From the IMG/VR virus record IMGVR_UViG_3300045919_000631, positions 1-64,000 of that record: 64,000 nucleotides of DNA; one strand, 5' to 3'. A model generated the notes under the pieces. The model saw only the letters and a list, made by a program, of their open reading frames with translations. It was not told where the DNA came from and searched no databases. Position numbers and translations under genes: made by a program. Of this stretch, positions 3,211-18,261 are shown piece after piece. Source of the stretch: a virus. The number at the start of each line of letters is the position of its first letter. Positions within the stretch are counted from its first letter, which is position 1.

Positions 3211-3452
3211 GGTTTGATATCTTTAACAGCTTCAACCTCTTTCTGAAGAGCCTTTTTCTTTGACTTCACTGCTTTAACCACTGCTTTTTTATTAGTGGCT
3301 AAACGTTCAGCTTCTTCTTGGAGAAAGTCTGTTTGTCTATCATCATTGAGCAATTTGCTCTTAATCCAGTGATCAAGCCAAGCAGATCGGAAGATCCAGT
3401 AGCAAAGAGCTAGAAGACTGATTATTGCAAGAAATCGTTCGAAGAGAATCAT
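3207..3452 (-). CDS. membrane-anchored coiled-coil protein
   Basis: 81 residues. Residues 3-22 form a hydrophobic helix (FLAIISLLALCYWIF). Residues about 40-80 are Lys/Glu/Ala-rich and likely helical. A class-1 promoter at 3458..3473 places the ATG 5 nt below the -10 box. Function unknown; the SPFH protein is encoded two genes downstream, so a membrane-associated role is plausible. Confidence 0.7.
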   Translation of the reverse strand: MILFERFLAIISLLALCYWIFRSAWLDHWIKSKLLNDDRQTDFLQEEAERLATNKKAVVKAVKSKKKALQKEVEAVKDIKP

Positions 3453-3457
3453 ACCTT

Positions 3458-3473
3458 ATTTTATGACATTTCC
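3458..3473 (-). promoter_or_regulatory. class-1 phage promoter (GGAAA-N5-TAAAAT)
   Basis: The -10 box ends 5 nt before the ATG at 3452. The site overlaps the 3' end of the upstream gene. Confidence 0.75.
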
Positions 3474-4015
3474 TGTATAACTTTTTTCATTGCTGATTTA
3501 ATCTCTCGGAGATCTTTAGCAAGGTCTTTCTTTGTGTATGTGTCAAAACCTTTTTGCATTGCTGATGCAGCAATATCAAGTCCAACGTCTTCGAAGCGTT
3601 TAAGCTTCTCGAGCCAATAATCGTTTTGAAAAGCTCGCAGATCAGCCCGGATTTGATCTGGAGTCAAGGCCTCTCCGTCTCTGTTCAGAAAATATTCTGC
3701 GTCGCGACCAAGACCAAGCTCAAGCTCGGCATCGATATAATATGCACGCATACGCGGCGACAAATCAACGAAATCTTCATCAATGAGAGTTGAAAGATTA
3801 TAGCCTGATTTCTTTTTAGGATAATCATGCACAGTACCTTTGATGAAGCGAAATTGGCCATCTTCATTTACGCCAGTTTCAAGGTGACCCCAAAACTTCC
3901 AATGCTCATGCGGGGTACTATTTTCCCAGGCTCCATCAGAGAGTTGCCCAGAAATTTCGTGCTCCCAAATTGCGTGCAAGCCTTTACTAGGAAATAACCA
4001 CGTATGTTTGTTCAT
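3461..4015 (-). CDS. hypothetical protein
   Basis: 184 residues, no family recognised. The N-terminal half is Trp/His/Gly-rich (WEHEISGQLSDGAW); the C-terminal half looks helical and charged. It is preceded by its own class-1 promoter and is probably transcribed on into the small membrane-protein genes downstream. Confidence 0.65.
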   Translation of the reverse strand: MNKHTWLFPSKGLHAIWEHEISGQLSDGAWENSTPHEHWKFWGHLETGVNEDGQFRFIKGTVHDYPKKKSGYNLSTLIDEDFVDLSPRMRAYYIDAELELGLGRDAEYFLNRDGEALTPDQIRADLRAFQNDYWLEKLKRFEDVGLDIAASAMQKGFDTYTKKDLAKDLREIKSAMKKVIQEMS

Positions 4016-4023
4016 TCGTGGTT

Positions 4024-4039
4024 ATTTTACTGATTTTCC
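4024..4039 (-). promoter_or_regulatory. class-1 phage promoter (GGAAA-N5-TAAAAT)
   Basis: The -10 box lies 8 nt before the ATG at 4015. Confidence 0.75.
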
Positions 4040-4671: not shown

Positions 4672-4701
4672 ATAAAAAAGCCGGTGGTATTAGCACCGGC
4701 T
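4672..4701 (-). terminator. Rho-independent terminator of the NAD+ operon
   Basis: Minus strand: stem AGCCGGTG/CACCGGCT with a 7-nt loop followed by six T residues, just after the NAMPT-family stop at 4713. Confidence 0.9.
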
Positions 4702-4712
4702 TGGTTGATTTA

Positions 4713-6230
4713 TTAAGCTAACGCTTTTTCTACATTTGCCTGGACTCGAGCTCGAATTTCTGCGAGACTCTGATCAACAAGCAGCTTACCATCTCTGAAT
4801 ACTTCCTTGAGCTGATTAAACTCGCTATTAACGAGCTCTCTCGGCTGGCGATCAAGTGCGATATAATCACCGTTACCATCTTTAACAACGAGAATAAATC
4901 CTCGTGCCGATTTCTTTAAGCCCGAATCTGTCTTCGGATCTTTGAAGATTTCTCTGGTTTCTCCATTGACAATACCAGCTGTTGCCTTCATGGCAAAGCC
5001 GAGTGTGTCGCGTGTTGTATAGGTGTAAGTGTAAGAACCAACACCGAGAACAACATTTGTCGAGGCGAAGCCTTTATCTTTCAGGCCAGACATGATTTGT
5101 TCACACCGCTCAAGCGTGATACTATCACCGTAAATGAGACCGATATGACTATCAAGGACTCTAAATCCTTTATCGGTTACGGTCCCGCCAAAGATATCCC
5201 AGAGACACTGAATAGCGCCTTTGAACTCAGGACTATCACGACGAGCTTGAGGATCGCCAACAATAATCTTTACAGGGTCACCAGAATCTGGACGAATGAC
5301 AACTCTATCGATTGGGAATCCTCCCTTTCGTGCAAGGATATCTTCTTTGAGCTTTGGCAAGAACTTTGTGATAACCTGCCAGAAATCAAAAGAATCCGAT
5401 ACGATAGAAACGATACCCTTTGGATATACTTCTGTGATGAGTCTCTTGAAGGTATCAAACTCACCGTCTTTAGTGCCCATGCACATAACGCTGTGTTCAG
5501 TAGCTGGAACCGATGTTCCAATAAGCTCTTTGTCAGCATTGGCATTGTAATACTCTTCAGCGAAGTCGATTGCAGGCACTGTATCAGTACCGACAAACGA
5601 AGTCAAGTGACCGAGGCCACTCGAAGCACCATCAAAGGCACCGTTCATTCCGCGGAAGCTAAAATCGTGCGCTTGGAAAGGCACGAAGTTTACATCACCA
5701 CCGGTTTCTTTTGCATAGCGTGTGAGCAGCTGCTTATACTTATATGCAGTTGTCGCACTTGTGCAAGTCTTCCAGATGGAGTTACTGATATTGGTTTCCA
5801 AATAGTTTGTCAACCAAAAGAACTCAGGCTTTGTGTTCTCAATTGTAAAGAGAGGAACACGTGCATTTACTGCAGAGCCCTCAGGGAGAGCTCGAACCGA
5901 TAGCGGCAAATACCCCAGATCGTGTAGCGCTTCGATGTGGTCAACTGGAACTGCTCCCACACCTAAAGATGTATCCATTCGTCGTTTATAAGCACCAACG
6001 ACTTGCGCCTTTGGTAGCTTGAAAAAGCCTTCGTCAAAATTCTTGACAAGGTCTTTGATGTATGCCTGAAGACCAACGGAGACGATTTTTTCGTCAACAC
6101 CCGTAGCTTTCGCAGCGTGCTTTACAGAACGCGGCGTGAAGTTCGAGTAAACAAGCTCAGTCCCTTGTGGATACTGTCGCCTGTGATCGGTCTTATAGAA
6201 GTCCAACTGTGTTAGTGGATTTATTTTCAT
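4713..6230 (-). CDS. nicotinamide phosphoribosyltransferase family (NAMPT or Namat)
   Basis: 505 residues, close to the usual 470-500. The N-terminal QLDFYKTDHRRQYP, the catalytic His at about 246 (PATEHSVM), RPDSGDP at 313-319 and GVGSYTYTYTTRDTLG at 396-411 match the NAMPT fold. NAMPT makes NMN from nicotinamide and PRPP. Its phage relative Namat joins nicotinamide to ADP-ribose pyrophosphate to give NAD+ directly. No NMN adenylyltransferase lies in this window, and the partner gene is PRPP-synthetase-like, which is the NARP1 arrangement. The sequence alone does not settle the substrate. It overlaps the NADAR stop by ATGA and is last in the operon. Confidence 0.93.
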   Translation of the reverse strand: MKINPLTQLDFYKTDHRRQYPQGTELVYSNFTPRSVKHAAKATGVDEKIVSVGLQAYIKDLVKNFDEGFFKLPKAQVVGAYKRRMDTSLGVGAVPVDHIEALHDLGYLPLSVRALPEGSAVNARVPLFTIENTKPEFFWLTNYLETNISNSIWKTCTSATTAYKYKQLLTRYAKETGGDVNFVPFQAHDFSFRGMNGAFDGASSGLGHLTSFVGTDTVPAIDFAEEYYNANADKELIGTSVPATEHSVMCMGTKDGEFDTFKRLITEVYPKGIVSIVSDSFDFWQVITKFLPKLKEDILARKGGFPIDRVVIRPDSGDPVKIIVGDPQARRDSPEFKGAIQCLWDIFGGTVTDKGFRVLDSHIGLIYGDSITLERCEQIMSGLKDKGFASTNVVLGVGSYTYTYTTRDTLGFAMKATAGIVNGETREIFKDPKTDSGLKKSARGFILVVKDGNGDYIALDRQPRELVNSEFNQLKEVFRDGKLLVDQSLAEIRARVQANVEKALA

Positions 6231-6694
6231 GTTATTAGTTTTCTTACTTGTATCAGAGCCTGCCCCAGAAGGTTTTGTCCTTTCCAGTTAGCGGGATCTA
6301 AGATTTTGTCGTCATTTGCTCCGAGGCCGACGCCCCAGATATTATCAACTGGCGATGCTTCAACTAGGATTCTATCTCCAGTATCTCGTAGATTTTGCCC
6401 GAGCTCACTGTTTTGCTGAAACTTGAGTAGATTGACATATGTCATCAACCCAAATTTGACGCATTCCCAAGCCTTTGCGTCGAATCCTTTGACTAGCCTA
6501 CCGAGCTTTTTTGCTTCAGCAGGGTTTGTCTCCTTAAAAATTTTGTCTTTGATTTCTTCATCACCGAAGAAGTCAGCTTTATACCACATGAACGCTTGTT
6601 CGCTATTAGCGAAAACTCCCGTAGGGGCTGGATACCAATTACTGTAGATATCGGCTGTGCCCCAGAAATAAATTGCTTTGTCTGTAATTCTCAT
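6227..6694 (-). CDS. NADAR (YbiA-like) N-glycosidase family protein
   Basis: 155 residues, full length for the family. YFWGTADIYSNWYPAP (9-24) and NSEQAFMWYKADFFGD (about 30-45) are the classic NADAR signatures. The C-terminal GVGLGANDDKILDPANWKGQNLLG completes the fold. Known NADAR proteins cleave N-glycosidic bonds, including removal of ADP-ribose from guanine in DNA, and YbiA/RibX acts on riboflavin intermediates. Inside an NAD+ operon it may recover ADP-ribose or reverse ADP-ribosylation; that is inference. Confidence 0.9.
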   Translation of the reverse strand: MRITDKAIYFWGTADIYSNWYPAPTGVFANSEQAFMWYKADFFGDEEIKDKIFKETNPAEAKKLGRLVKGFDAKAWECVKFGLMTYVNLLKFQQNSELGQNLRDTGDRILVEASPVDNIWGVGLGANDDKILDPANWKGQNLLGQALIQVRKLIT

Positions 6695-6697
6695 AAA

Positions 6698-7165
6698 TTA
6701 TTTTACTTCGCTAATCAAACGTTCTATCCATTTATTATAATCATCGTATAGTGGAATTCTATACTTTTCAGCGATAATCTCAACATTTCCTTTTCGCCAG
6801 AACCCTTCGGGGCAGCAGATTATAAGTTTGTCTGATTTTGCGTTTAATCCAAGTTCAAGTAAGCTAATTGGTGACTTTGTATTTGGAGCCAGATACATTG
6901 CGATAATATCGGCATCGGATAACCCTCGAAGCTCCCATGTTACTTGCTCTTTAAATACTGGATTTGTGATGCTTTGTACATAATCTACATCAAACTTTTT
7001 ACGCCGCGGATTTAAGATTGTGCAGTTATAAGGACTGAGCCAATTTGTTACCTCTGTCTGCCAATCCACTGCCTTATCCATATCAATGGATCCGGCTAGA
7101 AAGATTACAGGATTTTTTACTGGGATATCATACGGTTCTGGTGCAATGAAAACTTTAGCGCTCAT
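6698..7165 (-). CDS. nucleoside 2-deoxyribosyltransferase-like protein
   Basis: 155 residues. IFLAGSIDMDKAVDWQ (21-36), a central PVFKEQVTWELRGLSDADI and SLLELGLNAKSDKLIICC fit the nucleoside 2-deoxyribosyltransferase-like superfamily (SLOG/TIR-related Rossmann fold). The ELG glutamate is the likely nucleophile. Members transfer deoxyribose between bases or hydrolyse nucleotides. The start overlaps the stop of 7162..8040 by ATGA and the stop lies 3 nt before the NADAR start, so it is part of the same operon. Its substrate here is unknown. Confidence 0.8.
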   Translation of the reverse strand: MSAKVFIAPEPYDIPVKNPVIFLAGSIDMDKAVDWQTEVTNWLSPYNCTILNPRRKKFDVDYVQSITNPVFKEQVTWELRGLSDADIIAMYLAPNTKSPISLLELGLNAKSDKLIICCPEGFWRKGNVEIIAEKYRIPLYDDYNKWIERLISEVK

Positions 7166-8040
7166 GTATAAAAGATTTCCTCAAGTTTAGTAACTGTTAC
7201 TCGCGGTTCCATAACCCATTGAGTTTCTCCGCCCCAGCTATCCGTTGTGAAGATTTGGTCAATTCCTCCATCAATAAGGACTCTTGTACCTTTCGAGAAG
7301 ATACCGTGCGTCACATACAGGGCAATGGTTCCTGCATTTTTAGCACGGAGAGCTTTTGCAAGCTCAATAAATGTACGACCACCATCACAAATGTCATCGC
7401 AAATGATAACAGAAGCACCTTTTAAATCGTCTGCATAGACGATAGTCTCCTTAATTTGACCGGTCGCAAGATCACGAAGCTTATCGCAGCGAATAAAGCT
7501 ACTATGATCGTAAAGTTTCGCAAGAGCTGCAGTCTTTTTATTTGCGCCAGCATCTGGGCTCACAAAGATGGGCTTTGCAGTAATAATATACTTGTTAAGC
7601 TCAGCAAACTCTCCAATAATTTCTTGCTGGCTAAGAACAAGACTATTATTGATAAGTGCTGGAGTTACATCAGAATGCGGATCAACAATAGCGACGGAAT
7701 GAAAGTTTAAGCTATTGATATAATTTGCAAAAACTCTCAAACTAAAAGGTTCACCTTTATCACATACTCTATCTTGTCGGCCATATGGTACATATGGCAT
7801 AAAAAGTTTAATATTAGTTCTTGGCTGAACCAGTTCTTTTACTGCATCTTGAATCAAAGCAAGTTCAAATAGGTCAACAGCATCATGAATACGAGCAGTA
7901 ATCATCACTGGATTAGTAGTGTGATTAAATGCATAGTTTTCACTATCAAGTTTCACTCCAATCTCACCACCAGGAAAGAGGAAGCGATTGTTTTGCTTTA
8001 CCCATTCACCTTCAAAGCCAGGAACTTTAATTTTGAACAT
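7162..8040 (-). CDS. ribose-phosphate pyrophosphokinase family (PRPP synthetase or Adps)
   Basis: 292 residues, a little shorter than the usual 310-320. YGRQDR (86-91), DPHSD (120-124), SPDAGANKK (161-169) and the PRPP loop VIICDDICDGGRT (211-223) are all present. The N-terminal 40 residues are unlike housekeeping Prs. Family members make PRPP from ribose-5-phosphate and ATP; the phage relative Adps pyrophosphorylates ADP-ribose. It is first in a four-gene operon ending with a NAMPT-family gene, with a class-1 promoter 5 nt before the ATG. Confidence 0.92.
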   Translation of the reverse strand: MFKIKVPGFEGEWVKQNNRFLFPGGEIGVKLDSENYAFNHTTNPVMITARIHDAVDLFELALIQDAVKELVQPRTNIKLFMPYVPYGRQDRVCDKGEPFSLRVFANYINSLNFHSVAIVDPHSDVTPALINNSLVLSQQEIIGEFAELNKYIITAKPIFVSPDAGANKKTAALAKLYDHSSFIRCDKLRDLATGQIKETIVYADDLKGASVIICDDICDGGRTFIELAKALRAKNAGTIALYVTHGIFSKGTRVLIDGGIDQIFTTDSWGGETQWVMEPRVTVTKLEEIFYT

Positions 8041-8045
8041 ATTAT

Positions 8046-8061
8046 ATTGTATTGAATTTCC
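8046..8061 (-). promoter_or_regulatory. class-1 phage promoter of the NAD+ operon
   Basis: GGAAA-N5-TACAAT, ending 5 nt before the ATG at 8040. Start and end of the four-gene operon are thus both marked (terminator 4672..4701). Confidence 0.75.
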
Positions 8062-8264
8062 TATTGAACGTTGTGTTCATCATTTCTAAGAAAGTTTTCC
8101 ATTGCACTTAATGGTTTAGGTGCGTCATAATCAGGTTCTTCATCCTCGTCTTCAGCTTCGCAATGCTCACCGCATTCACTGCACATATCACCGTGCATTA
8201 CGCGAGCACCGCAGCAATTAGATACACAGCCACCAGAAAAGTAATCAAAATAATCGTCACTCAT
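8061..8264 (-). CDS. small zinc-ribbon acidic protein
   Basis: 67 residues. CVSNCCGARVMHGDMCSEC gives the Cys pairs of a zinc ribbon at about residues 13-31, followed by a strongly acidic stretch. Similar short zinc-ribbon proteins are common in T4-like phages. The start overlaps the stop of the metallophosphoesterase gene by ATGA. Confidence 0.7.
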   Translation of the reverse strand: MSDDYFDYFSGGCVSNCCGARVMHGDMCSECGEHCEAEDEDEEPDYDAPKPLSAMENFLRNDEHNVQ

Positions 8265-8953
8265 GGGTTTTCTCGTTTATGGTCTCTAACATCAAGGTCT
8301 CTGTGGCTCAAAAGTTCAATTACATAAGAAGCAGCAACTGGGCCACCGAAAGATTCGATACCAACATCAAGACGCTTACCAAGACCAGTATCAGGACGAG
8401 TCAATGGGAGATCTCCGTGTGAGTGGCCACAAATATGGATTGAATTATGTCCCATACGCTCATGCGATATGATTGGAAAGTGACAAAGCACGAAAAGCTG
8501 CTTATTGACTTGAACAGTTGCGTACTGATGCAAAAATACGACACGACGATTTGGATTATTGTCTAACTCAAAATCGAGAGGATACACCTCATACTTTAGA
8601 GTACCGTCGTAATCAATAGCTGTTGGGTAATTTCTAAAGAGTGTGTTCTTGTATGCTTGGCCTTGACCACTATTATGATTTCCCCAAAGCAAATAAAGCG
8701 TTTTAAACTTTAAGCGACGAACAAGAGCCCAGAAATCAGCAGCTTCAGCCTTGATAATAAAATCACCAACGTGAAAGACAATACCGTCATCTGGTACGCG
8801 AGTATTCCAAGTTTGAACTAAAGCCTCGTTACAGTCTTTAGCGTTGGAAAACCCTCGAGGTTTCCAGATAAAGTCTTTATCATGACCATAGTGAAGGTCG
8901 CTAACAAAGAAGACTTTTTCGTCAGGATGCTGGATTTTTAGTGGCTTGAACAT
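8261..8953 (-). CDS. calcineurin-like metallophosphoesterase
   Basis: 230 residues. Metal-binding motifs appear in order: SDLHYGH (18-24), HVGDF (about 61-65), WGNHNSG (about 90-96), a central CHFPI segment and ICGHSHGDL (about 173-181). Members hydrolyse phosphomono- or diesters with two metal ions; the substrate is unknown. Unusually for this window it has a good Shine-Dalgarno-like GGAG about 9 nt before the ATG, and a long inverted repeat (8983..9046) instead of a class-1 promoter upstream. Confidence 0.88.
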   Translation of the reverse strand: MFKPLKIQHPDEKVFFVSDLHYGHDKDFIWKPRGFSNAKDCNEALVQTWNTRVPDDGIVFHVGDFIIKAEAADFWALVRRLKFKTLYLLWGNHNSGQGQAYKNTLFRNYPTAIDYDGTLKYEVYPLDFELDNNPNRRVVFLHQYATVQVNKQLFVLCHFPIISHERMGHNSIHICGHSHGDLPLTRPDTGLGKRLDVGIESFGGPVAASYVIELLSHRDLDVRDHKRENP

Positions 8954-9800: not shown

Positions 9801-10012
9801 TAGCTAATAAGTGCAGAGATTTTCGTATGCACAGCATGTGCGGCTTCGTGCTCTTTATTTAGCTCATCGTTCTTTGCGCCAAGATAGATAATAACTACAT
9901 CATTATCTGCAATTTGCTGCTTATTACGCACCTTGAGGTCTTCAAGATCTTGAATTGTTTTCGTGAACGACGAGAGGATGTCGGTAAGTTTTTTCTTTTT
10001 AAAGAGTGGCAT
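9800..10012 (-). CDS. small coiled-coil protein
   Basis: 70 residues, a basic start (MPLFKKKKLTD) then a predicted amphipathic helix rich in Lys, Asp, Asn and Glu. No known function. First gene of a three-gene unit behind a class-1 promoter 8 nt from its ATG. Confidence 0.65.
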   Translation of the reverse strand: MPLFKKKKLTDILSSFTKTIQDLEDLKVRNKQQIADNDVVIIYLGAKNDELNKEHEAAHAVHTKISALIS

Positions 10013-10020
10013 AGATTTAT

Positions 10021-10036
10021 ATTTTACGGAAGTTCC
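10021..10036 (-). promoter_or_regulatory. class-1 phage promoter (GGAAC-N5-TAAAAT)
   Basis: The -10 box is 8 nt before the ATG at 10012; the GGAAC box reaches the stop codon of the bilin reductase gene. Confidence 0.78.
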
Positions 10037-10704
10037 TATTGAGAAAGTTCTGGAAACAAGTAACGATTAATGTAGATGTTAACCATGTCTTCAGGATAAC
10101 CACATCCCATTAAAAATCGCTTTGTATAAACGTTTTCTTTTTGATTTTTGCAGTAATAGTTATGTTCTGGTATGAAGCTCGAATTGACTACAGTTTTGCC
10201 AACATTTGCTAGATAATAATCCATGCTTTTACAAGCAACATCAATAATCTTATTGAGCTCATCATCTGAACTAACATTACCAGCAGCAATCATAAAAGGA
10301 GAAAATATTCTCTTTCCCCAATCTGGCAATTCCCTATCTTTCTTCCACGTGAGAGGTTTTACTGTCTCTTCAAACCACTTCATCATAAAATGGTCTTTAT
10401 CGCCAGTAATCGAAAAATCGTGAAAGATGCCAGTAATTTTATTGGCGCCAGCCATCAAATCAAATCCATATATTGGAGATGCGTCATCAGTCTTTGGAAA
10501 GATTGTAATATGCATTATCCACATCTTTTTGGATTCACGCACATCCAATACTTGAATATGTGCGCGCCTATACGTATCTGATTTCCAAACTTTATTAAAC
10601 CAATTGAAGGCTTCTAATTGCCGCTCTTCAATTGGTTTACCTGATTTATCTAGCTTAGCAGTTAACTCATCTGCTAAGCTTTGCATTCTGTCAAAAATTG
10701 TCAC
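10036..10704 (-). CDS. ferredoxin-dependent bilin reductase (PebS/PcyA/PcyX-like)
   Basis: 222 residues, typical for the family. The central core MHITIFP (64-70), SPIYGFDLMAGANKITGIFHDFS (76-98; conserved Asp at 82) and the C-terminal NVYTKRFLMGCGYPEDMV followed by LFPE match ferredoxin-dependent bilin reductases. These reduce biliverdin IX-alpha to phycobilins using reduced ferredoxin. The gene overlaps the heme oxygenase gene by ATGA, giving a two-step heme to biliverdin to bilin pathway like that of cyanophages and of metagenomic phages with PcyX. The exact product (phycoerythrobilin or phycocyanobilin) cannot be told. Confidence 0.85.
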   Translation of the reverse strand: MTIFDRMQSLADELTAKLDKSGKPIEERQLEAFNWFNKVWKSDTYRRAHIQVLDVRESKKMWIMHITIFPKTDDASPIYGFDLMAGANKITGIFHDFSITGDKDHFMMKWFEETVKPLTWKKDRELPDWGKRIFSPFMIAAGNVSSDDELNKIIDVACKSMDYYLANVGKTVVNSSFIPEHNYYCKNQKENVYTKRFLMGCGYPEDMVNIYINRYLFPELSQ

Positions 10705-11275: not shown

Positions 11276-11971
11276 TTAAAGAATACCTTCTTTGATGAGT
11301 CGGTCCATGAGTTTCACGCCAGGGACATTGAAGGAACGGAGCACCTCAATTGCACATTTAATAAGGTCATCTGTATATTCACGACCGGTGTTAGTATCAT
11401 TAATGCAATCAAGAATATCTGAATAGTGATTTCTATCAATGATAGCAATGGCAAGTTCGTTTTCCTCAAGTGACTTAGAGTTCATCTCTTTAAGAACTCG
11501 TGTCAAAGCAGAAATTACCTCATATCGGTTGATGATTATGGATGTCAAAAATGGAGAGAAATCAACATTAGCGTCGATATCAATCCCGCGAAACACTCTA
11601 GGCAAAAGTGTTGAAATCAGTTGCGTGTTAAGCCGAGCTTGGAAACGACTCCCTCTAACGAGGCCGGCGCTTCCAAGCTGAGCCACTGCAATGCGACGAA
11701 GACCTTTAGCGCGATCCTTCTCATCTTTAAACGGTGCGCCATCATTGACTGTAATTTTAAAATCTCGGACACAATTAGCAACACACTTCGGTTGGTCATT
11801 GTGAGGATATCCTAGCGCATAAGCGACTGCGGATTCAACGCACATTTCACCCGGCACTGGTTCTCCTTCAGTGTCTGCAACAAGGCCTGCATCCACGACT
11901 TCAACAACATGGCGAGCTTGAGCCAACGTAATTGGCGCAAACGAATTTTTCTTTAGTTTTTTAGTTGGCAT
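11276..11971 (-). CDS. hypothetical protein
   Basis: 231 residues, no family recognised. It has a Lys-rich start, a Cys-containing stretch (CVESAVAYALGYPHNDQPKC, about 44-63) and a helical C-terminal half. A class-1 promoter lies 8 nt from the ATG. No terminator was seen between it and the heme oxygenase start 38 nt downstream, so HO and the bilin reductase may be co-transcribed with it. Confidence 0.65.
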   Translation of the reverse strand: MPTKKLKKNSFAPITLAQARHVVEVVDAGLVADTEGEPVPGEMCVESAVAYALGYPHNDQPKCVANCVRDFKITVNDGAPFKDEKDRAKGLRRIAVAQLGSAGLVRGSRFQARLNTQLISTLLPRVFRGIDIDANVDFSPFLTSIIINRYEVISALTRVLKEMNSKSLEENELAIAIIDRNHYSDILDCINDTNTGREYTDDLIKCAIEVLRSFNVPGVKLMDRLIKEGIL

Positions 11972-11979
11972 ACTATTTT

Positions 11980-11995
11980 ATTTTATAGTTTTTCC
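11980..11995 (-). promoter_or_regulatory. class-1 phage promoter (GGAAA-N5-TAAAAT)
   Basis: 8 nt before the ATG at 11971; probably also drives heme oxygenase and bilin reductase. Confidence 0.75.
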
Positions 11996-12018: not shown

Positions 12019-12095
12019 TGGTACCATCGGAGGGGCTCGAACCCTCGACCCTCGGTTTAGAAAACCGATGCTCTGTCCGGCTGAGCTACAATGGT
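12019..12095 (-). tRNA. tRNA-Arg(TCT)
   Basis: 77 nt with encoded CCA. Loop TTTCTAA in a perfect TCGGT/ACCGA stem; seven paired acceptor positions including one G-T. Confidence 0.93.
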
Positions 12096-12104
12096 ATAAA
12101 ATTT

Positions 12105-12485
12105 TTAATCAATCTCTCCTTTTTCTTCGATTTCTTCCTCATCCTCTTCGTCGAGTTCTCCAATCCGTTCCAAAGCAAAATCAATTACACCAGAACCTGT
12201 CCCAAACCCATACTCGCCACATTCAAACAATTTCTTCAGTGTTGCTGCCTCTTCGTCAGAAAGTTCTTTGACTTTAAATGAACGAAGCCAATCATTATAG
12301 CCACAAAAAATTATTTGCTCGTTAGTACCAAAATACACTTCTTGTTCTGTATCTCCAACTTTTTCAAAGTACTTTGCGGTAATTTTCTTAATTTCTTCCC
12401 ATTCATCAGCTTCTACAACGTGAAAAAAATCGAGGTCAAACTCATCAGCGTAATTTGTATTTCCAATAATTAGAACTTTAGACAT
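12105..12485 (-). CDS. hypothetical acidic-tail protein
   Basis: 126 residues; a compact N-terminal domain beginning MSKVLIIGNTNYADEF and a run of about 15 acidic residues near the C-terminus. No family recognised. A class-1 promoter sits 5 nt before the ATG, and the stop lies 9 nt before tRNA-Arg, which may be co-transcribed. Confidence 0.65.
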   Translation of the reverse strand: MSKVLIIGNTNYADEFDLDFFHVVEADEWEEIKKITAKYFEKVGDTEQEVYFGTNEQIIFCGYNDWLRSFKVKELSDEEAATLKKLFECGEYGFGTGSGVIDFALERIGELDEEDEEEIEEKGEID

Positions 12486-12490
12486 ACCAG

Positions 12491-12506
12491 ATTGTATGGA
12501 AGTTCC
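12491..12506 (-). promoter_or_regulatory. class-1 phage promoter (GGAAC-N5-TACAAT)
   Basis: 5 nt before the ATG at 12485. Confidence 0.75.
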
Positions 12507-12515
12507 CGCAGGGGA

Positions 12516-12543
12516 AAGGCTCCCATATTTCTATGAGAGCCTT
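12516..12543 (-). terminator. hairpin below the outer-membrane protein gene
   Basis: AAGGCTC/GAGCCTT 7-bp stem with inner CATA/TATG pairing around GAAA on the minus strand. Only three T residues follow, so it may be a weak terminator or a 3'-stabilising hairpin. Confidence 0.55.
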
Positions 12544-12577
12544 CATTCGTAGTCCGGAGACAACGCGTGACAGTAAA

Positions 12578-13297
12578 TTAGAACTTCAAGCTATAACCGC
12601 CGCTATAACCTGTGATTTGTCCATTGTTGTTAGTAAAGCCATTGCGATGAACAAAGACACCTGCTCCGAGATCACCATGCTTGGTTACATATCCAACACC
12701 AAGACCACCAGTATAATAGCGCTTTGCGTTCTTATATGCAGCAACTGTGAAGGAGCCAGGATCGTTGAAACCGACGCCAAAGCTTGGGACTACCTTGAAG
12801 CCCTTATAGACAGGGATCCGAACTTTAGTGGTGCCTTCATAATTGACTGAATGATTTTTCGTGTCAAAACGTGCTGTCAGATCAAGAGGAATGATCGTTG
12901 AGTTACCGCTCACTCTGATAAACGGCACTGTATTGTTCTTGAAACCATCAAATGCAGCTGTTCGGCTCACATTCTTGTAAGTTGCTCCAAGCTCTAAATC
13001 AGCAATAGTCGCTACGAATTTGTAGCTTGCTGTGACATCAACTCGCTTGAAAAGGCCAGCCTTAACGGTGGTCTTATTCAAATTAGCTGTATCAATATTG
13101 CTGTAGGTCTCGACACCGACACCAACACCGTAAAGGCTTGTTGATGCGCCTGCTGTCGCAACATTTGTTTCTGTCACAACACCTTGCTCAAGAAGCTTCG
13201 ATGTATATCCAACGTTGGCAGTCACATCGAAGGGAACTCCTGCGAATGCAATGCCGGCTGTAAGCACAAGAAGTGCAATTAGTTTAGTTTTATTCAT
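12578..13297 (-). CDS. phage-encoded outer-membrane beta-barrel protein
   Basis: 239 residues. A signal peptide (basic start, hydrophobic LIALLVLTAGIAFA, cleavage near residue 19) is followed by alternating polar/aromatic beta strands. The protein ends YSGGYSLKF; a C-terminal aromatic is the usual BAM recognition signal. It should be exported and folded into the host outer membrane. Candidate roles are receptor masking (superinfection exclusion) or nutrient uptake; neither is shown. It has its own class-1 promoter 8 nt before the ATG. Confidence 0.8.
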   Translation of the reverse strand: MNKTKLIALLVLTAGIAFAGVPFDVTANVGYTSKLLEQGVVTETNVATAGASTSLYGVGVGVETYSNIDTANLNKTTVKAGLFKRVDVTASYKFVATIADLELGATYKNVSRTAAFDGFKNNTVPFIRVSGNSTIIPLDLTARFDTKNHSVNYEGTTKVRIPVYKGFKVVPSFGVGFNDPGSFTVAAYKNAKRYYTGGLGVGYVTKHGDLGAGVFVHRNGFTNNNGQITGYSGGYSLKF

Positions 13298-13305
13298 ACA
13301 GTCTT

Positions 13306-13321
13306 ATTTAATCACTGTTCC
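13306..13321 (-). promoter_or_regulatory. class-1 phage promoter (GGAAC-N5-TTAAAT)
   Basis: 8 nt before the ATG at 13297. Confidence 0.7.
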
Positions 13322-13352
13322 CAACTGCATCAACTTTCAAAGTGGTGAAAAT

Positions 13353-13438
13353 TGGTACGCAAGGAGAGATTCGAACTCTCAAGGACATTTGATCCTAAGT
13401 CAAATGGTTCTACCAGTTTCCCTTTCGTCCACTTGCGC
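13353..13438 (-). tRNA. tRNA-Leu(TAG)
   Basis: 86 nt with a long variable region and CCA; loop CTTAGGA in a TTTGA/TCAAA stem. Its 5' part is also the 3' end of the HNH gene. Confidence 0.92.
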
Positions 13439-14059
13439 AAGTAAAAGTTTATCTATTCGTTTGTAATAACTGCCATAATTGCTTGGTATTTTTAATTCTC
13501 TTAAAGTGTCTTGCATATTAAAGTTGTTTTTCTTGTACGTGTGGATTAGATCTTCATCGGATACTCGAAGTTTACAATTTTTTTGCTTTTTGCGGCGGTA
13601 TGTTGGTGTTTGAGCATGGCAATTCGGGCATAATCGTCTCAAGTTTTTAATTCTGTTGTCAGATCTAATTCCATTTATATGGTCAGTTTCCAGCGGAATT
13701 GGAAAATCGTTCCAAGCTGATAACCCGCAACCACCGCACTGATCAGGCCAGTGAAGCACTTCTGTTAAATGACGCTTAATAACACTGCCACCAATATTAG
13801 AATTTGCTGTGAATACGGTTGGATCAGCATATTGTGAGTATTTACCGGGCTTGATTAAGGCTGTTACTCCTTTATGCTGTGGATTGCCAGCATAATTAAT
13901 GCCAAGCTCAGCATTATATTTCATCCATGTTCCATGTGATATGCCTAGCTTTCTTTTAATTTCAAAATTAGAGATTGTATTGTTTGACTCTTCAATCCAT
14001 CTAATAATTTCAGCTTTTCTGGCGGATATCTTTAATCTTTTTCCTTCTCTGGTAGTCAT
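13400..14059 (-). CDS. HNH homing-type endonuclease
   Basis: 219 residues. The N-terminal part looks like a helix-turn-helix (ISNFEIKRKLGISHGTWMKY). The HNH domain has CGGCGL (about 107), the LETDHINGI segment (about 124) and CPNCH (about 144), giving the Cys4 zinc and His-Asn-His core. It makes a nick or double-strand break; genes of this kind usually spread by homing. The last 39 nt overlap tRNA-Leu(TAG), and the stop TAG is part of the tRNA D arm. Confidence 0.88.
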   Translation of the reverse strand: MTTREGKRLKISARKAEIIRWIEESNNTISNFEIKRKLGISHGTWMKYNAELGINYAGNPQHKGVTALIKPGKYSQYADPTVFTANSNIGGSVIKRHLTEVLHWPDQCGGCGLSAWNDFPIPLETDHINGIRSDNRIKNLRRLCPNCHAQTPTYRRKKQKNCKLRVSDEDLIHTYKKNNFNMQDTLRELKIPSNYGSYYKRIDKLLLAQVDERETGRTI

Positions 14060-14101
14060 AGCTCATATATTTATATCACGACTACCGTTACACCATACGC
14101 C

Positions 14102-14380
14102 CTAAAAAATACTGTTCTTATTGGAGATCTTGTATTCAATAATAGTCCCAGTCGTGTTAATCGTCAGAGTTTCGCCTTTTAATAAAGATTGAATTGCATC
14201 TCCTTGCGTTAAATTCAAATAACTCCAGCATGTTGGAGGATTCGCTTTTAAGTATCTAAGACTTAGTAAAAACTCTAACGCTCCGGTGCATGGAAATGTT
14301 GTCTTGCAAATAACACTGAGATTATTTTCTATATCTTCTTCTATCGCATCAATCCCGTTCAAAAAATCAGCATCGTTCAT
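14102..14380 (-). CDS. hypothetical protein with ADFLNGIDAIEED leader
   Basis: 92 residues, no family recognised. The N-terminus MNDADFLNGIDAIEEDIEN matches the leaders of 14383..14652 and 20656..20904 and residues 13-30 of 490..837. The body differs. Third or fourth gene of the operon from 16078. Confidence 0.65.
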   Translation of the reverse strand: MNDADFLNGIDAIEEDIENNLSVICKTTFPCTGALEFLLSLRYLKANPPTCWSYLNLTQGDAIQSLLKGETLTINTTGTIIEYKISNKNSIF

Positions 14381-14382
14381 AA

Positions 14383-14652
14383 TTAGAATCTTTTGTATCG
14401 TATAATTTTAAGACCTTCAATTTTTCTGCCTATATGATCTAATTGCATATCAATTGTGACTGTCTCTCCTCGGAGGAGTGCTTCTCGTCTTCTATCAATA
14501 TCAAAGGTTGGCCAACATCTAATCATATCGCCAAGCAAAAAAAGTTCAATATGATGCACTTGATTATCATCATAAATCAGCTCTTGAGTAATTAGCAATT
14601 TGTCGTTGATTTCTTTTTCAAGAGCATCAACCCCAGCTAAGAAATCGTTCAT
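14383..14652 (-). CDS. hypothetical protein with NDFLAGVDALEKE leader
   Basis: 89 residues. It shares the N-terminal motif and some layout with its neighbour at 14102..14380, suggesting ancient tandem duplication. The start overlaps the stop of 14649..15842 by ATGA. Confidence 0.65.
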   Translation of the reverse strand: MNDFLAGVDALEKEINDKLLITQELIYDDNQVHHIELFLLGDMIRCWPTFDIDRRREALLRGETVTIDMQLDHIGRKIEGLKIIRYKRF

Positions 14653-15842
14653 CCTTTTGAATTAGCAAAATCTCCAGGACCATCTTCTTCATCTTCAGAA
14701 GAGTCTTTAAACTTATCTTCTGATGCATCGTTGTATGCATCCCATTGAGCTTGAGCTTGGCTAATTAAGCTCTTGAAAAGATTAGCAGATTGATTATTAT
14801 TCTGCATGGCAAGCTTAATTGTTGCAGCGTCTTGTTGAAGAAGTAGCTTATAAACAAGAGGCAACAGCTTCATATCTTTTTGCGGGACATGCGTTGCTAG
14901 ATTTGTGTATAGAGCTGGACCACTCATAATATCAGTAACTTCATCATCAACAGTCTCTTTATCGAGATTTGACTGAGAAGTGACATCCATTGAGAGATAA
15001 TCGTAAAGACCTTTTACAATTTCATGAACAAGATATGGGAAGAATGGAGCTTTTGCATTGATGACATATCCATTTCCTTCAGGCTCAACTTCTTCAGAGC
15101 CCATTGCCATATCATTGAGCATTTCTTTTGGAATTTGTTGATGTGGCGTTGCATAGTATACTGCTTGAACAATGACAGCTAAAGCACCATAAGCTTTTGT
15201 AAGCTCAGGAGAAATGTGGTCGAGTTGATCGCTAATCAGCTGAAAGAGATAAAGCTTATTAACAGCGTTGCCTTGTGTAATTAAATTTGCAAATTGTCTC
15301 TTCAATGAAGATTCATCAACATCAGCTAATACATCAGCAAGCTCTAAATTAATTTTTTCAGCCTCTGTCAAATCATCAGGGCCTTGAGGTTGCTCTTCGG
15401 CAAGCTCTTTTTCTTGTTCAGTGATTGCATTATCGAGATTTGCAGCTGTTAATTGTGCATCAATTCGAATTGCACCTTTATCAATTAACTCTTTAAACAT
15501 CGCAAACTCAGGCAAATCTAAGACAACTTGCACAGCCAAGTGTTCAAGCTGCTCTTCATGGCCTTGTTGCAATTGTCCAGCTTTACGAATCGCTCCCATC
15601 ACTGTTTGAAGCAGCTGTGGTAATTGAATTTGACTTGCTGGCTTACCGAGATAGTGCTCAAGACGCTGAACCGTTTTCTTATAGCTTTCACTCGTTACGA
15701 GCTCCAGATAGCGCTGACCATTTGGTCCAGGCTCTGGCATAATTTCTTCAACAGGAAGCGGCTTTTTATAAAGAGCTTGCTTACTCTTATGAAAGAGGTT
15801 TGGAGCACCGCTTGTATCGATTGCTTCTTTAAAAGTTTTCAT
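14649..15842 (-). CDS. large hypothetical phage protein
   Basis: 397 residues. The N-terminus MKTFKEAIDTS resembles the T4 capsid-targeting peptide (MKTYQEFIAE-like). The rest is mostly helical with an acidic, Gln-rich middle and an Asp/Glu/Ser-rich C-terminus. No catalytic motif recognised. It is coupled by ATGA at both ends (15839 and 14649). An internal head or scaffold-type role is possible but unproven. Confidence 0.65.
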   Translation of the reverse strand: MKTFKEAIDTSGAPNLFHKSKQALYKKPLPVEEIMPEPGPNGQRYLELVTSESYKKTVQRLEHYLGKPASQIQLPQLLQTVMGAIRKAGQLQQGHEEQLEHLAVQVVLDLPEFAMFKELIDKGAIRIDAQLTAANLDNAITEQEKELAEEQPQGPDDLTEAEKINLELADVLADVDESSLKRQFANLITQGNAVNKLYLFQLISDQLDHISPELTKAYGALAVIVQAVYYATPHQQIPKEMLNDMAMGSEEVEPEGNGYVINAKAPFFPYLVHEIVKGLYDYLSMDVTSQSNLDKETVDDEVTDIMSGPALYTNLATHVPQKDMKLLPLVYKLLLQQDAATIKLAMQNNNQSANLFKSLISQAQAQWDAYNDASEDKFKDSSEDEEDGPGDFANSKG

Positions 15843-16078
15843 TTAGCCAAATTGCGGCGTTTTGCTTTGAAGAGGGTTACATCCTTTTCTTCATCCTCAC
15901 TCTTTGCAAGAGCTTTGGGGCGAGGTGTTATACCTGGCTTTGTGGGCTGCAACGGATGTGGTGTTGCTGGTCGCGTTCCTGGCGTTGCAGGCGTGCGCAC
16001 TGGTGTCTTTACAGGAGGTGGTAGTGTTTGAGGCATTTCTTTTAGAAGATTCTTGACAATGCTATCGTAGGTAAACAT
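15839..16078 (-). CDS. small proline-rich protein
   Basis: 79 residues. A short amphipathic start (MFTYDSIVKNLLKEMP) leads into a Pro/Thr-rich linker (about 17-58) and a charged C-terminus. Both promoter classes lie upstream: a late-type box ends 5 nt before the ATG, and a class-1 site lies 25 nt away. The operon could therefore be active early and late. Confidence 0.65.
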   Translation of the reverse strand: MFTYDSIVKNLLKEMPQTLPPPVKTPVRTPATPGTRPATPHPLQPTKPGITPRPKALAKSEDEEKDVTLFKAKRRNLAK

Positions 16079-16083
16079 TAAAA

Positions 16084-16091
16084 TATTTAAT
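16084..16091 (-). promoter_or_regulatory. late-type promoter box ATTAAATA
   Basis: Minus strand, exactly 5 nt before the ATG at 16078. Confidence 0.65.
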
Positions 16092-16103
16092 GCTATTTAG
16101 CCA

Positions 16104-16119
16104 ATAATAGAGATTTTCC
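16104..16119 (-). promoter_or_regulatory. class-1 phage promoter (GGAAA-N5-TATTAT)
   Basis: 25 nt above the ATG at 16078, just below the 3' end of tRNA-His. Confidence 0.6.
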
Positions 16120-16130
16120 TTTTGAGAAAT

Positions 16131-16206
16131 TGGGGTGCCCAAGGAGGATTGAACTCCCTCTCCAAGCTCCACAGGCTAGTGTGCAAACCAATACACTATG
16201 AGCACC
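16131..16206 (-). tRNA. tRNA-His(GTG)
   Basis: 76 nt with CCA. An extra 5' G pairs with the C discriminator, the hallmark of tRNA-His. One T-T mismatch in the anticodon stem. Confidence 0.92.
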
Positions 16207-16422
16207 ATAAAGTTCATACACTGTTATATCAGCCTGAACGCGCGCCGTGGAACTGGGTGATATGTTTAGCCTCTTGTGGCTCCTATTTGTTACCAAATAT
16301 AGCAGTGTAAAGGTTAGCCGCTAAGCCAGCCAGAACGGTTTCTCAGGACGTATATTTTACAGCAATGGTTTGTGCTCACTGGATCATAATATAATGACCT
16401 ATACGCTTAGCCCTGAGAAAGT
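16207..16422 (-). ncRNA. unidentified structured segment between tRNAs
   Basis: 216 nt with no ORF. It holds nested inverted repeats: TTTCTCAGG (16339..16347) with CCTGAGAAA (16412..16420), and inside them CGTATA with TATACG. The outer pair encloses 82 nt. A separate ATTTG-TTAC-CAAAT hairpin lies to the left. No tRNA T-loop or CCA was seen. It may be a stable RNA of unknown function, like T4 RNA C and RNA D in the T4 tRNA cluster, or decayed tRNAs. Confidence 0.45.
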
Positions 16423-16497
16423 TGGAAGACCGGGACGGAATTGAACCGACGAATAACAGGTTTGCAAGCTGCTGCCTAACCATTCGGCATCCGGTCT
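16423..16497 (-). tRNA. tRNA-Cys(GCA)
   Basis: 75 nt with CCA, U discriminator; loop TTGCAAA. The closing base pair of the anticodon stem (31-39) is a C-C mismatch. Confidence 0.88.
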
Positions 16498-16502
16498 AAA
16501 AA

Positions 16503-16577
16503 TGGTGCCTCCACTGTGAATCGAACACAGATTGACTGATTCGTAATCAGTTATTCTATCCATTGAAATATAGAGGC
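16503..16577 (-). tRNA. tRNA-Arg(ACG)
   Basis: 75 nt with CCA; loop TTACGAA in a perfect ACTGA/TCAGT stem. Confidence 0.92.
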
Positions 16578-16586
16578 TCAAAAAAT

Positions 16587-16663
16587 TGGTGGAGATGGTA
16601 GGACTCTAACCCACAGTTATAACTCGTTCGAAGCGAGGTCGGCTCTACTTTGCCAGCATCTCC
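16587..16663 (-). tRNA. tRNA-Arg(TCG)
   Basis: 77 nt with CCA, perfect seven-pair acceptor GGAGATG/CATCTCC. Loop CTTCGAA; T loop TTAGAGT is unusual. D and variable arms are slightly irregular. Confidence 0.75.
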
Positions 16664-16668
16664 AAAAT

Positions 16669-16744
16669 TGGTGCGCAAGGAGGGACTTGAACCCTCAGAA
16701 TCAGCCTTCTCAGAGCTGCGGCTATACCGTTCGCCTACAAGCGC
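16669..16744 (-). tRNA. tRNA with GAG anticodon (nominally Leu)
   Basis: 76 nt with CCA, perfect acceptor. Loop CTGAGAA in a CAGCT/GGCTG stem gives anticodon GAG, a Leu anticodon. There is no long variable arm, unlike the other Leu tRNAs here. The real amino acid is therefore uncertain. Confidence 0.75.
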
Positions 16745-16749
16745 AAAAA

Positions 16750-16977
16750 TTAACGACGTCTGTGATAATGACCATACCATCCAATATCAGCACGCCAAAA
16801 AATGAATGGTGCAGGATAGTAATACTGAGGTTGCGCAACAATAATATTTAGCGCACATTCAGCAGAGGGCATTGGTTGATAGCTGACTTGCTGATACACG
16901 ACCGGTACCGGCTGATGAACGGGAGCAGCAACGCAACCACCGAGAAATAAAGCTGCAATAAGAGTTAAGTATTTCAT
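16750..16977 (-). CDS. small putative lipoprotein
   Basis: 75 residues. A signal peptide with lipobox LGGC (Cys15) should give a lipid-anchored protein of about 60 residues. The mature part is Gln/Pro/Tyr-rich and ends WYGHYHRRR. Function unknown. It lies between tRNA genes; a late-type ATTAAATA box lies 9 nt before the ATG. Confidence 0.75.
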   Translation of the reverse strand: MKYLTLIAALFLGGCVAAPVHQPVPVVYQQVSYQPMPSAECALNIIVAQPQYYYPAPFIFWRADIGWYGHYHRRR

Positions 16978-16985
16978 ACGTAATA

Positions 16986-17195
16986 TTATTTAATTTCCCA
17001 CTCTAACCGAATATCAGTCCATGTTGGAGGGCAATAACAATAACCATCGCCATGATCCGCGCAACAGCCAACGTACTCCATTTTAACAGTAACTTTACTT
17101 AAATCTGTAACACCTTTTTCTTTAAGGCTTTTAATAAGATTTTCTATGCTGCAGCCTTCAGCGTCTGTTAGAGATAGTGTATCAACTTTTTTCAT
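16986..17195 (-). CDS. small Cys-rich hypothetical protein
   Basis: 69 residues; a cluster GCCADHGDGYCYC (about 44-56) could bind metal. No family recognised. It lies directly before the lipoprotein gene and just below tRNA-Arg(CCT), 4 nt from its 3' end. Confidence 0.65.
   Translation of the reverse strand: MKKVDTLSLTDAEGCSIENLIKSLKEKGVTDLSKVTVKMEYVGCCADHGDGYCYCPPTWTDIRLEWEIK
16987..16994 (-). promoter_or_regulatory. late-type promoter box ATTAAATA
   Basis: Minus strand, 9 nt before the lipoprotein ATG at 16977. Confidence 0.45.
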
Positions 17196-17199
17196 AAAT

Positions 17200-17275
17200 T
17201 GGTGCGGTCACTTGGACTTGAACCAAGACCAGCTGTTTAGGAAACAGCAACTCTTTCCAATTGAGCTATGACCGC
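17200..17275 (-). tRNA. tRNA-Arg(CCT)
   Basis: 76 nt with CCA; loop TTCCTAA in a perfect GCTGT/ACAGC stem; perfect acceptor. Confidence 0.93.
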
Positions 17276-17280
17276 GTAAA

Positions 17281-17405
17281 TGGAGTCGGATAGCGGAATC
17301 GAACCGCCTGTACTTCGAAGGTACGATCACCGTAGGCTTAATACCAACCAGGAGAGGCGTAAATGGTGCCTCTGAAGAGAATCGAACTCTATCTCCATAC
17401 CCGAC
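17281..17405 (-). pseudogene. interleaved pair of tRNA halves
   Basis: In minus order: 5' acceptor half GTCGGGT; a T arm with loop TTCGATT; 3' acceptor half CAGAGGC plus ACCA; 5 nt; 5' acceptor half GCCTCTC; a D-arm-like GG loop; an anticodon-like arm with loop CTTCGAA; a second T arm; and 3' acceptor half ATCCGAC plus TCCA. The first half pairs with the last (7 of 7 with one G-T) and the second with the third (6 of 7). This is one tRNA-like gene nested in another, or a 3'-half-before-5'-half arrangement. Recombination debris is the simplest reading. Confidence 0.6.
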
Positions 17406-17411
17406 ATAAAT

Positions 17412-17495
17412 TGGTGCCCAAGGTGGGACTCGAACCCACAAAACCGGAGATTTTAAGTCTCTAAACTGTGCCATTCGCTATAAGGTCACAAGGGC
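17412..17495 (-). tRNA. tRNA-Leu(TAA), imperfect acceptor
   Basis: 84 nt with CCA and a long variable region; loop CTTAAAA. Acceptor positions 5 and 6 are T-T mismatches. A second tRNA-Leu(TAA) lies at 31512. Confidence 0.82.
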
Positions 17496-17501
17496 AAAAA
17501 A

Positions 17502-17585
17502 TGGTGCCAGAGGTCGGACTCGAACCGACACGCCTTTCAGCGACTGATTTTGAGTCAGTTACGTCTACCGATTTCATCACACTGG
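17502..17585 (-). tRNA. tRNA-Leu(CAA)
   Basis: 84 nt with CCA and a long variable arm; loop CTCAAAA in an ACTGA/TCAGT stem. Confidence 0.93.
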
Positions 17586-17592
17586 CATTAAA

Positions 17593-17680
17593 TGGCGGAA
17601 AATGATCGCATCGAACAATTACGGTTTTTGCCGTACTACTGATTTCAAGTCAGTTTGAGGAGCCAACCTCAGCATCTTCC
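17593..17680 (-). tRNA. tRNA-Ser(TGA)
   Basis: 88 nt with CCA, G discriminator and a long variable arm; loop CTTGAAA. Confidence 0.92.
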
Positions 17681-17766
17681 AAAAATTGTTGTAAATTTTT
17701 TGAACATCTCTAATGAACTCTGCATTAAAATATTTAATCATATGCATTAAAACATTCAAGTAAAAT

Positions 17767-17856
17767 TGGCGGAGAGCAGGGGACATGATCCACAACCCAT
17801 TTAAGGATCTCATCGTTTAGCAAACGAGCCTAGTATGCCTATCTAGTTTACTCTCC
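17767..17856 (-). tRNA. tRNA-Ser(GCT)
   Basis: 90 nt with CCA, G discriminator and a long variable arm; loop TTGCTAA. The T loop ATCATGT departs from the TTC consensus. Confidence 0.85.
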
Positions 17857-17865
17857 AAAAATTTA

Positions 17866-18114
17866 TTACGCCATCACTTTGTCTTTTAATCGACGAGCAA
17901 TGCTGTAGTGTTTATTAAACTCGTTAGTTAACTTTTCACTACGAGCAATCTTTGCAGCCTGTGCATGAAATGTATAAAGAGCTCTCGGATCTTTACAATT
18001 CTCAATGCCAGGTACACTATTAACAAAATTGTGATAATCGTTCTCAGAGTCAAGCGCGGCTCTATTAATTGCAGCAACGCTTAAGATGTTATTTACAGCT
18101 TCGTTAAAGGTCAT
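17866..18114 (-). CDS. hypothetical protein with MTFNEAVNNIL start
   Basis: 82 residues, helical, Ala-rich. The N-terminus MTFNEAVNNILSVAA resembles those of 857..1453 and 14649..15842. A late-type AATAAATA box lies exactly 5 nt before the ATG, so it is probably a late gene. Function unknown; an internal virion protein is possible. Confidence 0.68.
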   Translation of the reverse strand: MTFNEAVNNILSVAAINRAALDSENDYHNFVNSVPGIENCKDPRALYTFHAQAAKIARSEKLTNEFNKHYSIARRLKDKVMA

Positions 18115-18119
18115 GTAAT

Positions 18120-18127
18120 TATTTATT
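18120..18127 (-). promoter_or_regulatory. late-type promoter box AATAAATA
   Basis: Minus strand, exactly 5 nt before the ATG at 18114; lies at the 3' end of the next small gene. Confidence 0.65.
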
Positions 18128-18248: not shown

Positions 18249-18253
18249 CCATA

Positions 18254-18261
18254 TATTTAAT
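18254..18261 (-). promoter_or_regulatory. late-type promoter box ATTAAATA
   Basis: Minus strand, exactly 5 nt before the ATG at 18248, directly below the tRNA-Gly 3' end. Confidence 0.62.

Follow-up and report, generated by a model that had tools for sequence, protein, structure and literature searches.

A NARP1-type NAD+ reconstitution operon in a T4-like phage record, with two putative ADP-ribose-releasing accessory genes

What is the role of two further enzyme genes inserted between the two genes of a phage NAD+ rebuilding pathway? The question is raised by a run of four minus-strand genes in the IMG/VR virus record IMGVR_UViG_3300045919_000631, a fragment of a T4-like myovirus, as shown by its contractile tail sheath, terminase of the T4 type and gp32-like protein. 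The stretch analysed, hereafter the window, comprises the first 64,000 bases of this 109,280-base and possibly incomplete record. In 5' to 3' order the quartet encodes an Adps-like protein of the phosphoribosyl pyrophosphate (PRPP) synthetase family, a deoxyribosyltransferase-like protein (PF15891, Nuc_deoxyri_tr2; hereafter DRT), a YbiA-type NADAR protein (PF08719) and Namat, of the nicotinamide ADP-ribose transferase type. Adps and Namat form NARP1, already known as a two-enzyme system that rebuilds NAD+ after defence (facts on NARP1 are taken from PMC12774641 and PMC13232231), and the new element is the DRT and NADAR context around this pair. We consider it probable, at about 0.6, that the operon directs NARP1-type NAD+ reconstitution with the aid of two accessory enzymes that release ADP-ribose.

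The four genes are closely packed. The Adps-like gene (7162..8040, 292 aa) and the DRT gene (6698..7165, 155 aa) share a 4-nt ATGA overlap, the DRT and NADAR (6227..6694, 155 aa) genes are separated by a 3-nt gap, and the NADAR and Namat (4713..6230, 505 aa) genes again share a 4-nt ATGA overlap, confirming the arrangement described in the initial annotation of this DNA. All four products passed the curated Pfam cut-offs, with matches to Pribosyltran_N/Pribosyl_synth, PF15891, NADAR (3.9e-42) and NAPRTase/NAMPT_N, respectively.

The assignment of the outer two proteins to the Adps and Namat families was borne out by comparison with Adps/Namat and with housekeeping Prs/Nampt, in which the diagnostic residues sided with NARP1. 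Namat is distinguished from Nampt by the helix motif GSX-phi-X-phi-X-phi-TRD, in which ADP-ribose pyrophosphate is held at its adenine by the aromatic residues (Lan et al., PMC12774641). Residues 398-408 of the 505-aa protein, the clamp helix, read GSYTYTYTTRD, an exact fit to the published signature, while the members of a contrast set of 80 phage Nampt-type loci read FGMGGALLQQVDRD or similar, the FGMGG...RD type. The best matches in the PDB were 9W5X and 9W5W, both structures of the SPbetaL1 Namat, and 17 of the 20 NAD+-contact residues of this crystallised enzyme are identical in the window protein, the differences being R40K, A362S and F392Y. In the selectivity-clamp loop, for which a stacking Arg, Lys or Tyr is expected, K41 aligns with R40, but the loop length differs.

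Adps, located two genes upstream of Namat in the same operon, keeps the catalytic residues of PRPP synthetase (RQDR, His122, Lys187, Arg189 and Asp215-Asp216) and shows 39% identity with SPbetaL1 Adps over 186 aa. Its 5'-phosphate loop reads DDICDGGRTF, as compared with DDMIDTGGTL in E. coli Prs; loops of the former kind are common to nearly all Namat partners, and the ordinary PRPP synthetase (PRPS) of viral locus L129 has the housekeeping loop. The altered loop is suggestive of ADP-ribose, rather than ribose-5-phosphate, as the substrate. A nicotinamide mononucleotide (NMN) adenylyltransferase domain (NMNAT; CTP_transf_like, PF01467), claimed to be missing in the initial annotation, was found neither in the window nor beyond it in the 109-kb, possibly incomplete record, the same search having detected 14 of 14 controls, nor did the operon or the record contain the combination of FGMGG...RD motif and NMNAT gene that marks NARP2. 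Nudix and macro domains were also not found in the 109-kb record. With the signature of Namat, a changed loop in Adps and no NMNAT found in the record, the outer pair is filed, as judged by diagnostic residues, under NARP1 and not under plain salvage.

Some variation was observed among the Namat relatives. The closest relative of the window Namat among the matches listed, itself bearing the signature, is encoded in a contig labelled Acinetobacter phage (L080, CAKLQF020000015.1), in which a Prs-Namat-NadM operon occurs together with bacterial genes. The Namat-like proteins of L025, L027, L029-L034, L039, L041, L066 and L071 form a second clade, of which the clamp helix is longer (GSFTYQGAVTPDAIITRDT) and the partners are Adps with DDINSMGGTF-type loops. 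In L061, L063, L065, L067 and L152, Namat is split into two open reading frames, some by about 700 nt, possibly due to introns or homing-endonuclease insertions.

Based on these identities, we propose the following scheme. Adps would convert ADP-ribose to ADP-ribose pyrophosphate with use of ATP, and Namat would join the latter to nicotinamide, giving NAD+ directly without an NMNAT step. NADAR would release the ADP-ribose bound in guanosine-linked (or related N-linked) conjugates, while DRT would hydrolyse another N-glycosidic nucleotide derived from NAD+, most likely an ADP-ribose conjugate or a cyclic ADP-ribose-type signal, thereby disarming the signal and giving ADP-ribose back to the pathway. 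N1- and N7-linked cyclic ADP-ribose (N1-cADPR and N7-cADPR), His-ADPR and guanosine-ADPr are all N-glycosidic molecules, and an N-glycosidase adjoining Adps and Namat could convert molecules of this kind into fuel. The expected benefit for the phage would be evasion of NAD+-depleting and ADP-ribosylating defences.

The residues of NADAR were read against PMC11543638 and PMC11125620. E32 and K39 of the catalytic set are kept, together with E112 in the last strand, D117 and W120, and of the five residues that contact ADP-ribose in the oomycete structure 8BAU, four are matched and one is changed from Arg to Lys. By these residues it is classified as the YbiA type (Glu) and not as the DarT1 type (Asp) or the phage gp30.3 type (His). 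The DarT1-NADAR and YarT-YbiA toxin-antitoxin pairs share with the window NADAR the glutamate of the YbiA type as well as the conserved E and K, but the window protein adjoins no ADP-ribosyltransferase toxin and is encoded among NAD+ synthesis genes. As early as 2022, NADAR was reported to lie close to NAD+ salvage genes of phages (PMC9503650), which qualifies the proposal of the initial annotation that both middle genes are new.

DRT possesses the features by which PF15891 proteins are recognised, that is, the Pfam match, the deoxyribosyltransferase (NDT)/N-glycosidase fold and the invariant glutamate. Across 66 relatives FLAG, WQ, NPRR (residues 52-55), E104 (within LLELG) and N127 are invariant, and RK is near-invariant. 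The AlphaFold model (pLDDT 93.9) was matched by Foldseek to the uncharacterised 4MCJ, followed by YtoQ, MilB, DNPH1, NDT and a TIR protein. MilB is a CMP N-glycosidase and DNPH1 a deoxynucleotide N-glycosidase. Since both the fold and the catalytic-type glutamate are those of nucleotide N-glycosidases, DRT is predicted to be an enzyme of this kind with E104 as the probable nucleophile, and the NPRR motif and the near-invariant RK would fit a larger, pyrophosphate-bearing substrate. In the literature searched, which was covered in part, we found neither a report on the function of PF15891 nor a paper linking it to NAD+ metabolism. Fusions of DRT to Nudix were detected in Tunturiibacter phage Tunturi_5 (L339, 5980-9768), in which a DRT domain forms the N-terminus of a protein of 1262 aa with the annotation MutT/Nudix hydrolase, and in a Klosneuvirus Nudix protein; the Tunturi_5 gene adjoins the portal gene. 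In NARP1 loci of viruses (L021, L035, L109, L117, L142 and L040), a HAD-like phosphatase family recurs beside Adps and DRT.

The association of DRT with NARP1 was then examined in viral genomes. Single-protein scans with DRT, NADAR and Nampt gave few or no relatives; for DRT and Nampt, alignments served as the queries. When viral contigs were scanned from a DRT seed, blind to NAD genes, 80 viral DRT loci were obtained. An Adps-like (PRPP-synthetase) and/or Namat gene was located within 8 kb in 38 of the 80 loci; in one of these (L129) the sole such gene is a housekeeping-type PRPS. The 70 neighbouring genes of these two kinds are without exception on the same strand as DRT, and the nearest one lies within 460 nt in 27 of the 38 linked loci. 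A Namat/Nampt-like gene was present elsewhere on the contig in 19 of 43 other contigs scanned. Among contigs of at least 100 kb carrying both genes, linkage was observed in 12 of 25, as against 9.5% expected from random placement (P = 8e-7). In direct phmmer counts of the neighbours, NADAR was present in 14 of 35 viral DRT loci with Namat and in none of 42 without NARP1 genes, and the macro domain in 14 of 35 and one of 42, respectively. Namat was accompanied by Adps in 68 of 77 cases.

The order of these genes varies, for example Adps-Namat-NADAR-DRT-macro in L082-L084 and Adps-macro-NADAR-Namat-DRT in L092 and L093. The viral loci represent 71 different DRT sequences, of which 30 are linked. 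The DRT tree requires 20 or more changes of linkage state (shuffled minimum 43), and the nearest relatives differ among the four proteins of the window. The variable order, the repeated change of linkage state and the different relatives point to repeated assembly of NARP1-DRT clusters, rather than inheritance as one block; a single inherited four-gene block was unsupported by the last two of these observations.

For comparison, the 80 Nampt-type (NARP2) viral loci were taken as the control. NadM-like genes were found in 68 of these, Adps and NADAR in none, macro in 33 and DRT in 9, indicating that DRT and macro are employed in either NAD+ route, and NADAR together with NARP1. In all of the 9 loci with DRT, this gene is on the same strand as Nampt and within 200 nt of it, and the order macro-DRT-Nampt is frequent; such triplets were observed in L277, L298, L302, L304 and L312. 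DRT, which in the initial annotation was suggested to process a nucleotide by-product, is thus not a by-product enzyme confined to the Adps/Namat chemistry, since it also accompanies Nampt in NARP2-type operons. The location beside Nampt fits the release of ADP-ribose, or the destruction of an ADP-ribose-type signal, because ADP-ribose would be able to enter the Nampt route after Nudix cleavage, as expected from established chemistry. A Nudix domain of NadM has been described (PMC9503650).

The same genes were found together on bacterial chromosomes. Within a bacterial sample consisting of the best 80 DRT loci, with family calls confirmed by Pfam on representatives, Adps/Namat were present in 24. 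NrtR, a repressor released by ADP-ribose (PMC12735969), was detected in 22 of these 24 loci and in one of the 56 loci without Adps/Namat; the corresponding counts were 16 and 0 for NADAR, 15 and 0 for macro, 14 and 3 for ADP-ribosylglycohydrolase (ARH), 16 and 2 for KptA, and 6 and one for microbial PARG. All of the 13 bacterial Namats found matched the Namat signature. The gene order is NrtR-Adps-DRT-Namat in Spongiivirga citrea (L225), and the window-like order Adps-DRT-NADAR-(..)-Namat was observed in L240 and L247; further island loci are L178, L191, L230, L181 and L205. About 15 of the 24 islands are from Aquimarina, and the P-values overstate the independence of the cases; the same association was found in Chitinophaga, Saprospiraceae and one Pseudomonadales genome. 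No paper describing NrtR-controlled islands was found in the part of the literature covered. NAD+-forming activity was shown for the bacterial Adps-Namat pair of Paenibacillus foliorum (PMC12774641); to such a pair the islands add NrtR, DRT, NADAR, macro, ARH, PARG and KptA, a composition pointing to ADP-ribose recycling.

The islands may form an ADP-ribose-to-NAD+ recycling system, and a wider reading, which we offer tentatively, regards the window cassette as the phage version of such a widespread and as yet undescribed system. In the bacterial NrtR island, NADAR, macro, ARH and PARG together with the NDT-fold enzyme would feed Adps and Namat; DRT would represent a new class of ADP-ribose N-glycosidase or a base-exchange enzyme making NAD+ from N-linked ADP-ribose and nicotinamide; and phages would have taken over the pathway, or repeatedly reassembled it, as NARP1.

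A precedent for accessory genes of this kind is RyDEP of phage DyoEdafos, an RyR-domain O-glycosidase for 2'cADPR and 3'cADPR, of which the gene is located inside the NARP1 operon (PMC13232231, preprint 2026). RyDEP yields ADP-ribose, which is turned into NAD+ by the Adps/Namat pair (PMC13232231). The window operon likewise carries accessory glycosidase-type genes predicted to make ADP-ribose, but these are NADAR and an NDT-fold protein, both expected to act on N-glycosidic bonds. The NARP1 systems of phages SPbetaL1, Bas63 and DyoEdafos agree with the window in having both enzymes, by family and diagnostic residues, on one transcript without NMNAT, and differ from it in that NADAR and DRT are here inserted between Adps and Namat; neither was described together with NARP1 in the literature searched. 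With NARP2, or NadV-NadM salvage of the KVP40 type, the window shares the rebuilding of NAD+ from nicotinamide by a phage, and DRT and macro may adjoin Nampt, but that route uses PRPP, Nampt and NMNAT, of which the window lacks the last, having the Namat signature. The initial annotation had proposed a combined cassette of NAD+ repair and de-ADP-ribosylation. The feeding of ADP-ribose to NARP1 is supported by the linkage in viruses and bacteria and by the RyDEP precedent, while the action of NADAR on DNA and the nature of the DRT substrate are predictions; both middle enzyme families recur beside the NARP1 pair and probably supply it with ADP-ribose.

Several observations weigh against this interpretation. 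The counts come from related genomes and hence are not independent. No Adps or Namat is nearby in 42 of 80 viral and 56 of 80 bacterial DRT loci, and in the cultured phages X1 and DLP_6 DRT is located among DNA-metabolism genes. DRT also adjoins Nampt, an enzyme unable to use ADP-ribose directly, and the substrate choice of Adps cannot be proven from residues.

In an alternative reading, unlikely in our estimate, NARP1 is genuine but NADAR (DNA guanine de-ADP-ribosylation) and DRT (an unrelated nucleotide signal) are independent counter-defence genes that feed no NAD+ synthesis. Anti-defence genes do cluster in phages (PMC11984713), NADARs reverse guanosine-ADPr on DNA (PMC11125620), and DRT exists without NARP1; however, the linkage to NARP1 is specific, on the same strand and often overlapping, it occurs in phages and on bacterial chromosomes under an ADP-ribose-sensing repressor, and NADAR and macro are nearly absent from DRT loci without NARP1 genes. 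DRT might instead be a MilB/DNPH1-type nucleosidase for a mononucleotide, such as NMN (supplying nicotinamide to Namat), AMP (which is formed by Adps) or a signal of deoxynucleotide type. Its Foldseek neighbours MilB and DNPH1 do act on 5'-mononucleotides, and the recurrent HAD-like phosphatase is even fused to DRT in L040, but we regard this as distinctly improbable: cleavage of NMN would be futile beside the Nampt/NadM operons that make this compound, which weakens in particular the supply of nicotinamide from NMN; the bacterial islands pair DRT with ADP-ribose hydrolases; and the NPRR and RK motifs would suit a bulkier substrate. It is very improbable that the outer genes encode a plain PRPP synthetase and a Nampt, by which NMN would be made, with completion by a host or undetected phage NMNAT. 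Although Namat still uses PRPP at a lower rate (PMC12774641) and the record may be incomplete, plain PRPP/NMN salvage was rejected because the signature is that of Namat, the loop of Adps is altered and no NMNAT was found in the record; moreover, the Nampt-type loci mostly contain NadM-like genes and in none of the 80 cases Adps, the usual companion of Namat.

The linkage suggests that NARP1 forms the core of a larger modular pathway collecting ADP-ribose from many conjugates, both in phages and on bacterial chromosomes. Bacterial NARP1 would then gain a physiological role, which was left open by its describers, and PF15891 proteins a testable function. RyDEP, the single known case of an immune signal turned into fuel, would be extended to N1-cADPR, N7-cADPR, His-ADPR or guanosine-ADPr.

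The borders of the operon, said to enclose exactly four genes between a promoter and a terminator, were only in part as proposed. An intrinsic terminator was located 3' of Namat (4678..4702, minus strand), consisting of a 9-bp stem, AAGCCGGTG...CACCGGCTT, followed by a T run, with a folding energy of -14.5 kcal/mol (z = -4.4). The promoter-like element GGAAATTCAATACAAT (8046..8061, minus strand), 5 nt upstream of the Adps ATG, includes no sigma-70 consensus site but belongs to a repeated class, GGAA-N5-8-TANAAT-N4-9-ATG. The stricter pattern GGAA-N5-8-TAWAAT-N4-9-ATG matched the window 12 times, as against 0.31 expected, and all but one of the matches lie on the minus strand; minus-strand copies are located, for instance, at 3450-3473, 4013-4039, 10010-10036, 11969-11995, 18678-18702, 19428-19451, 22079-22102, 23885-23907, 24739-24765, 28756-28781 and 33445-33470. 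Since the -10-like box sits just 4-9 nt upstream of the start codon, the element may act as a promoter specific to the phage, giving mRNAs with almost no leader. The strand of the operon carries two further genes upstream, 8061-8264 and 8261-8953, which end 20 nt ahead of the Adps start codon, so that a transcript of exactly four genes is unproven and read-through from both is possible.

Elsewhere on the minus strand of the window, 26 tRNA genes are spread across 20 kb (12019-31598). The record also codes for a ferredoxin-dependent bilin reductase, a heme oxygenase and a QueC homologue (window 10036-10704 and elsewhere).

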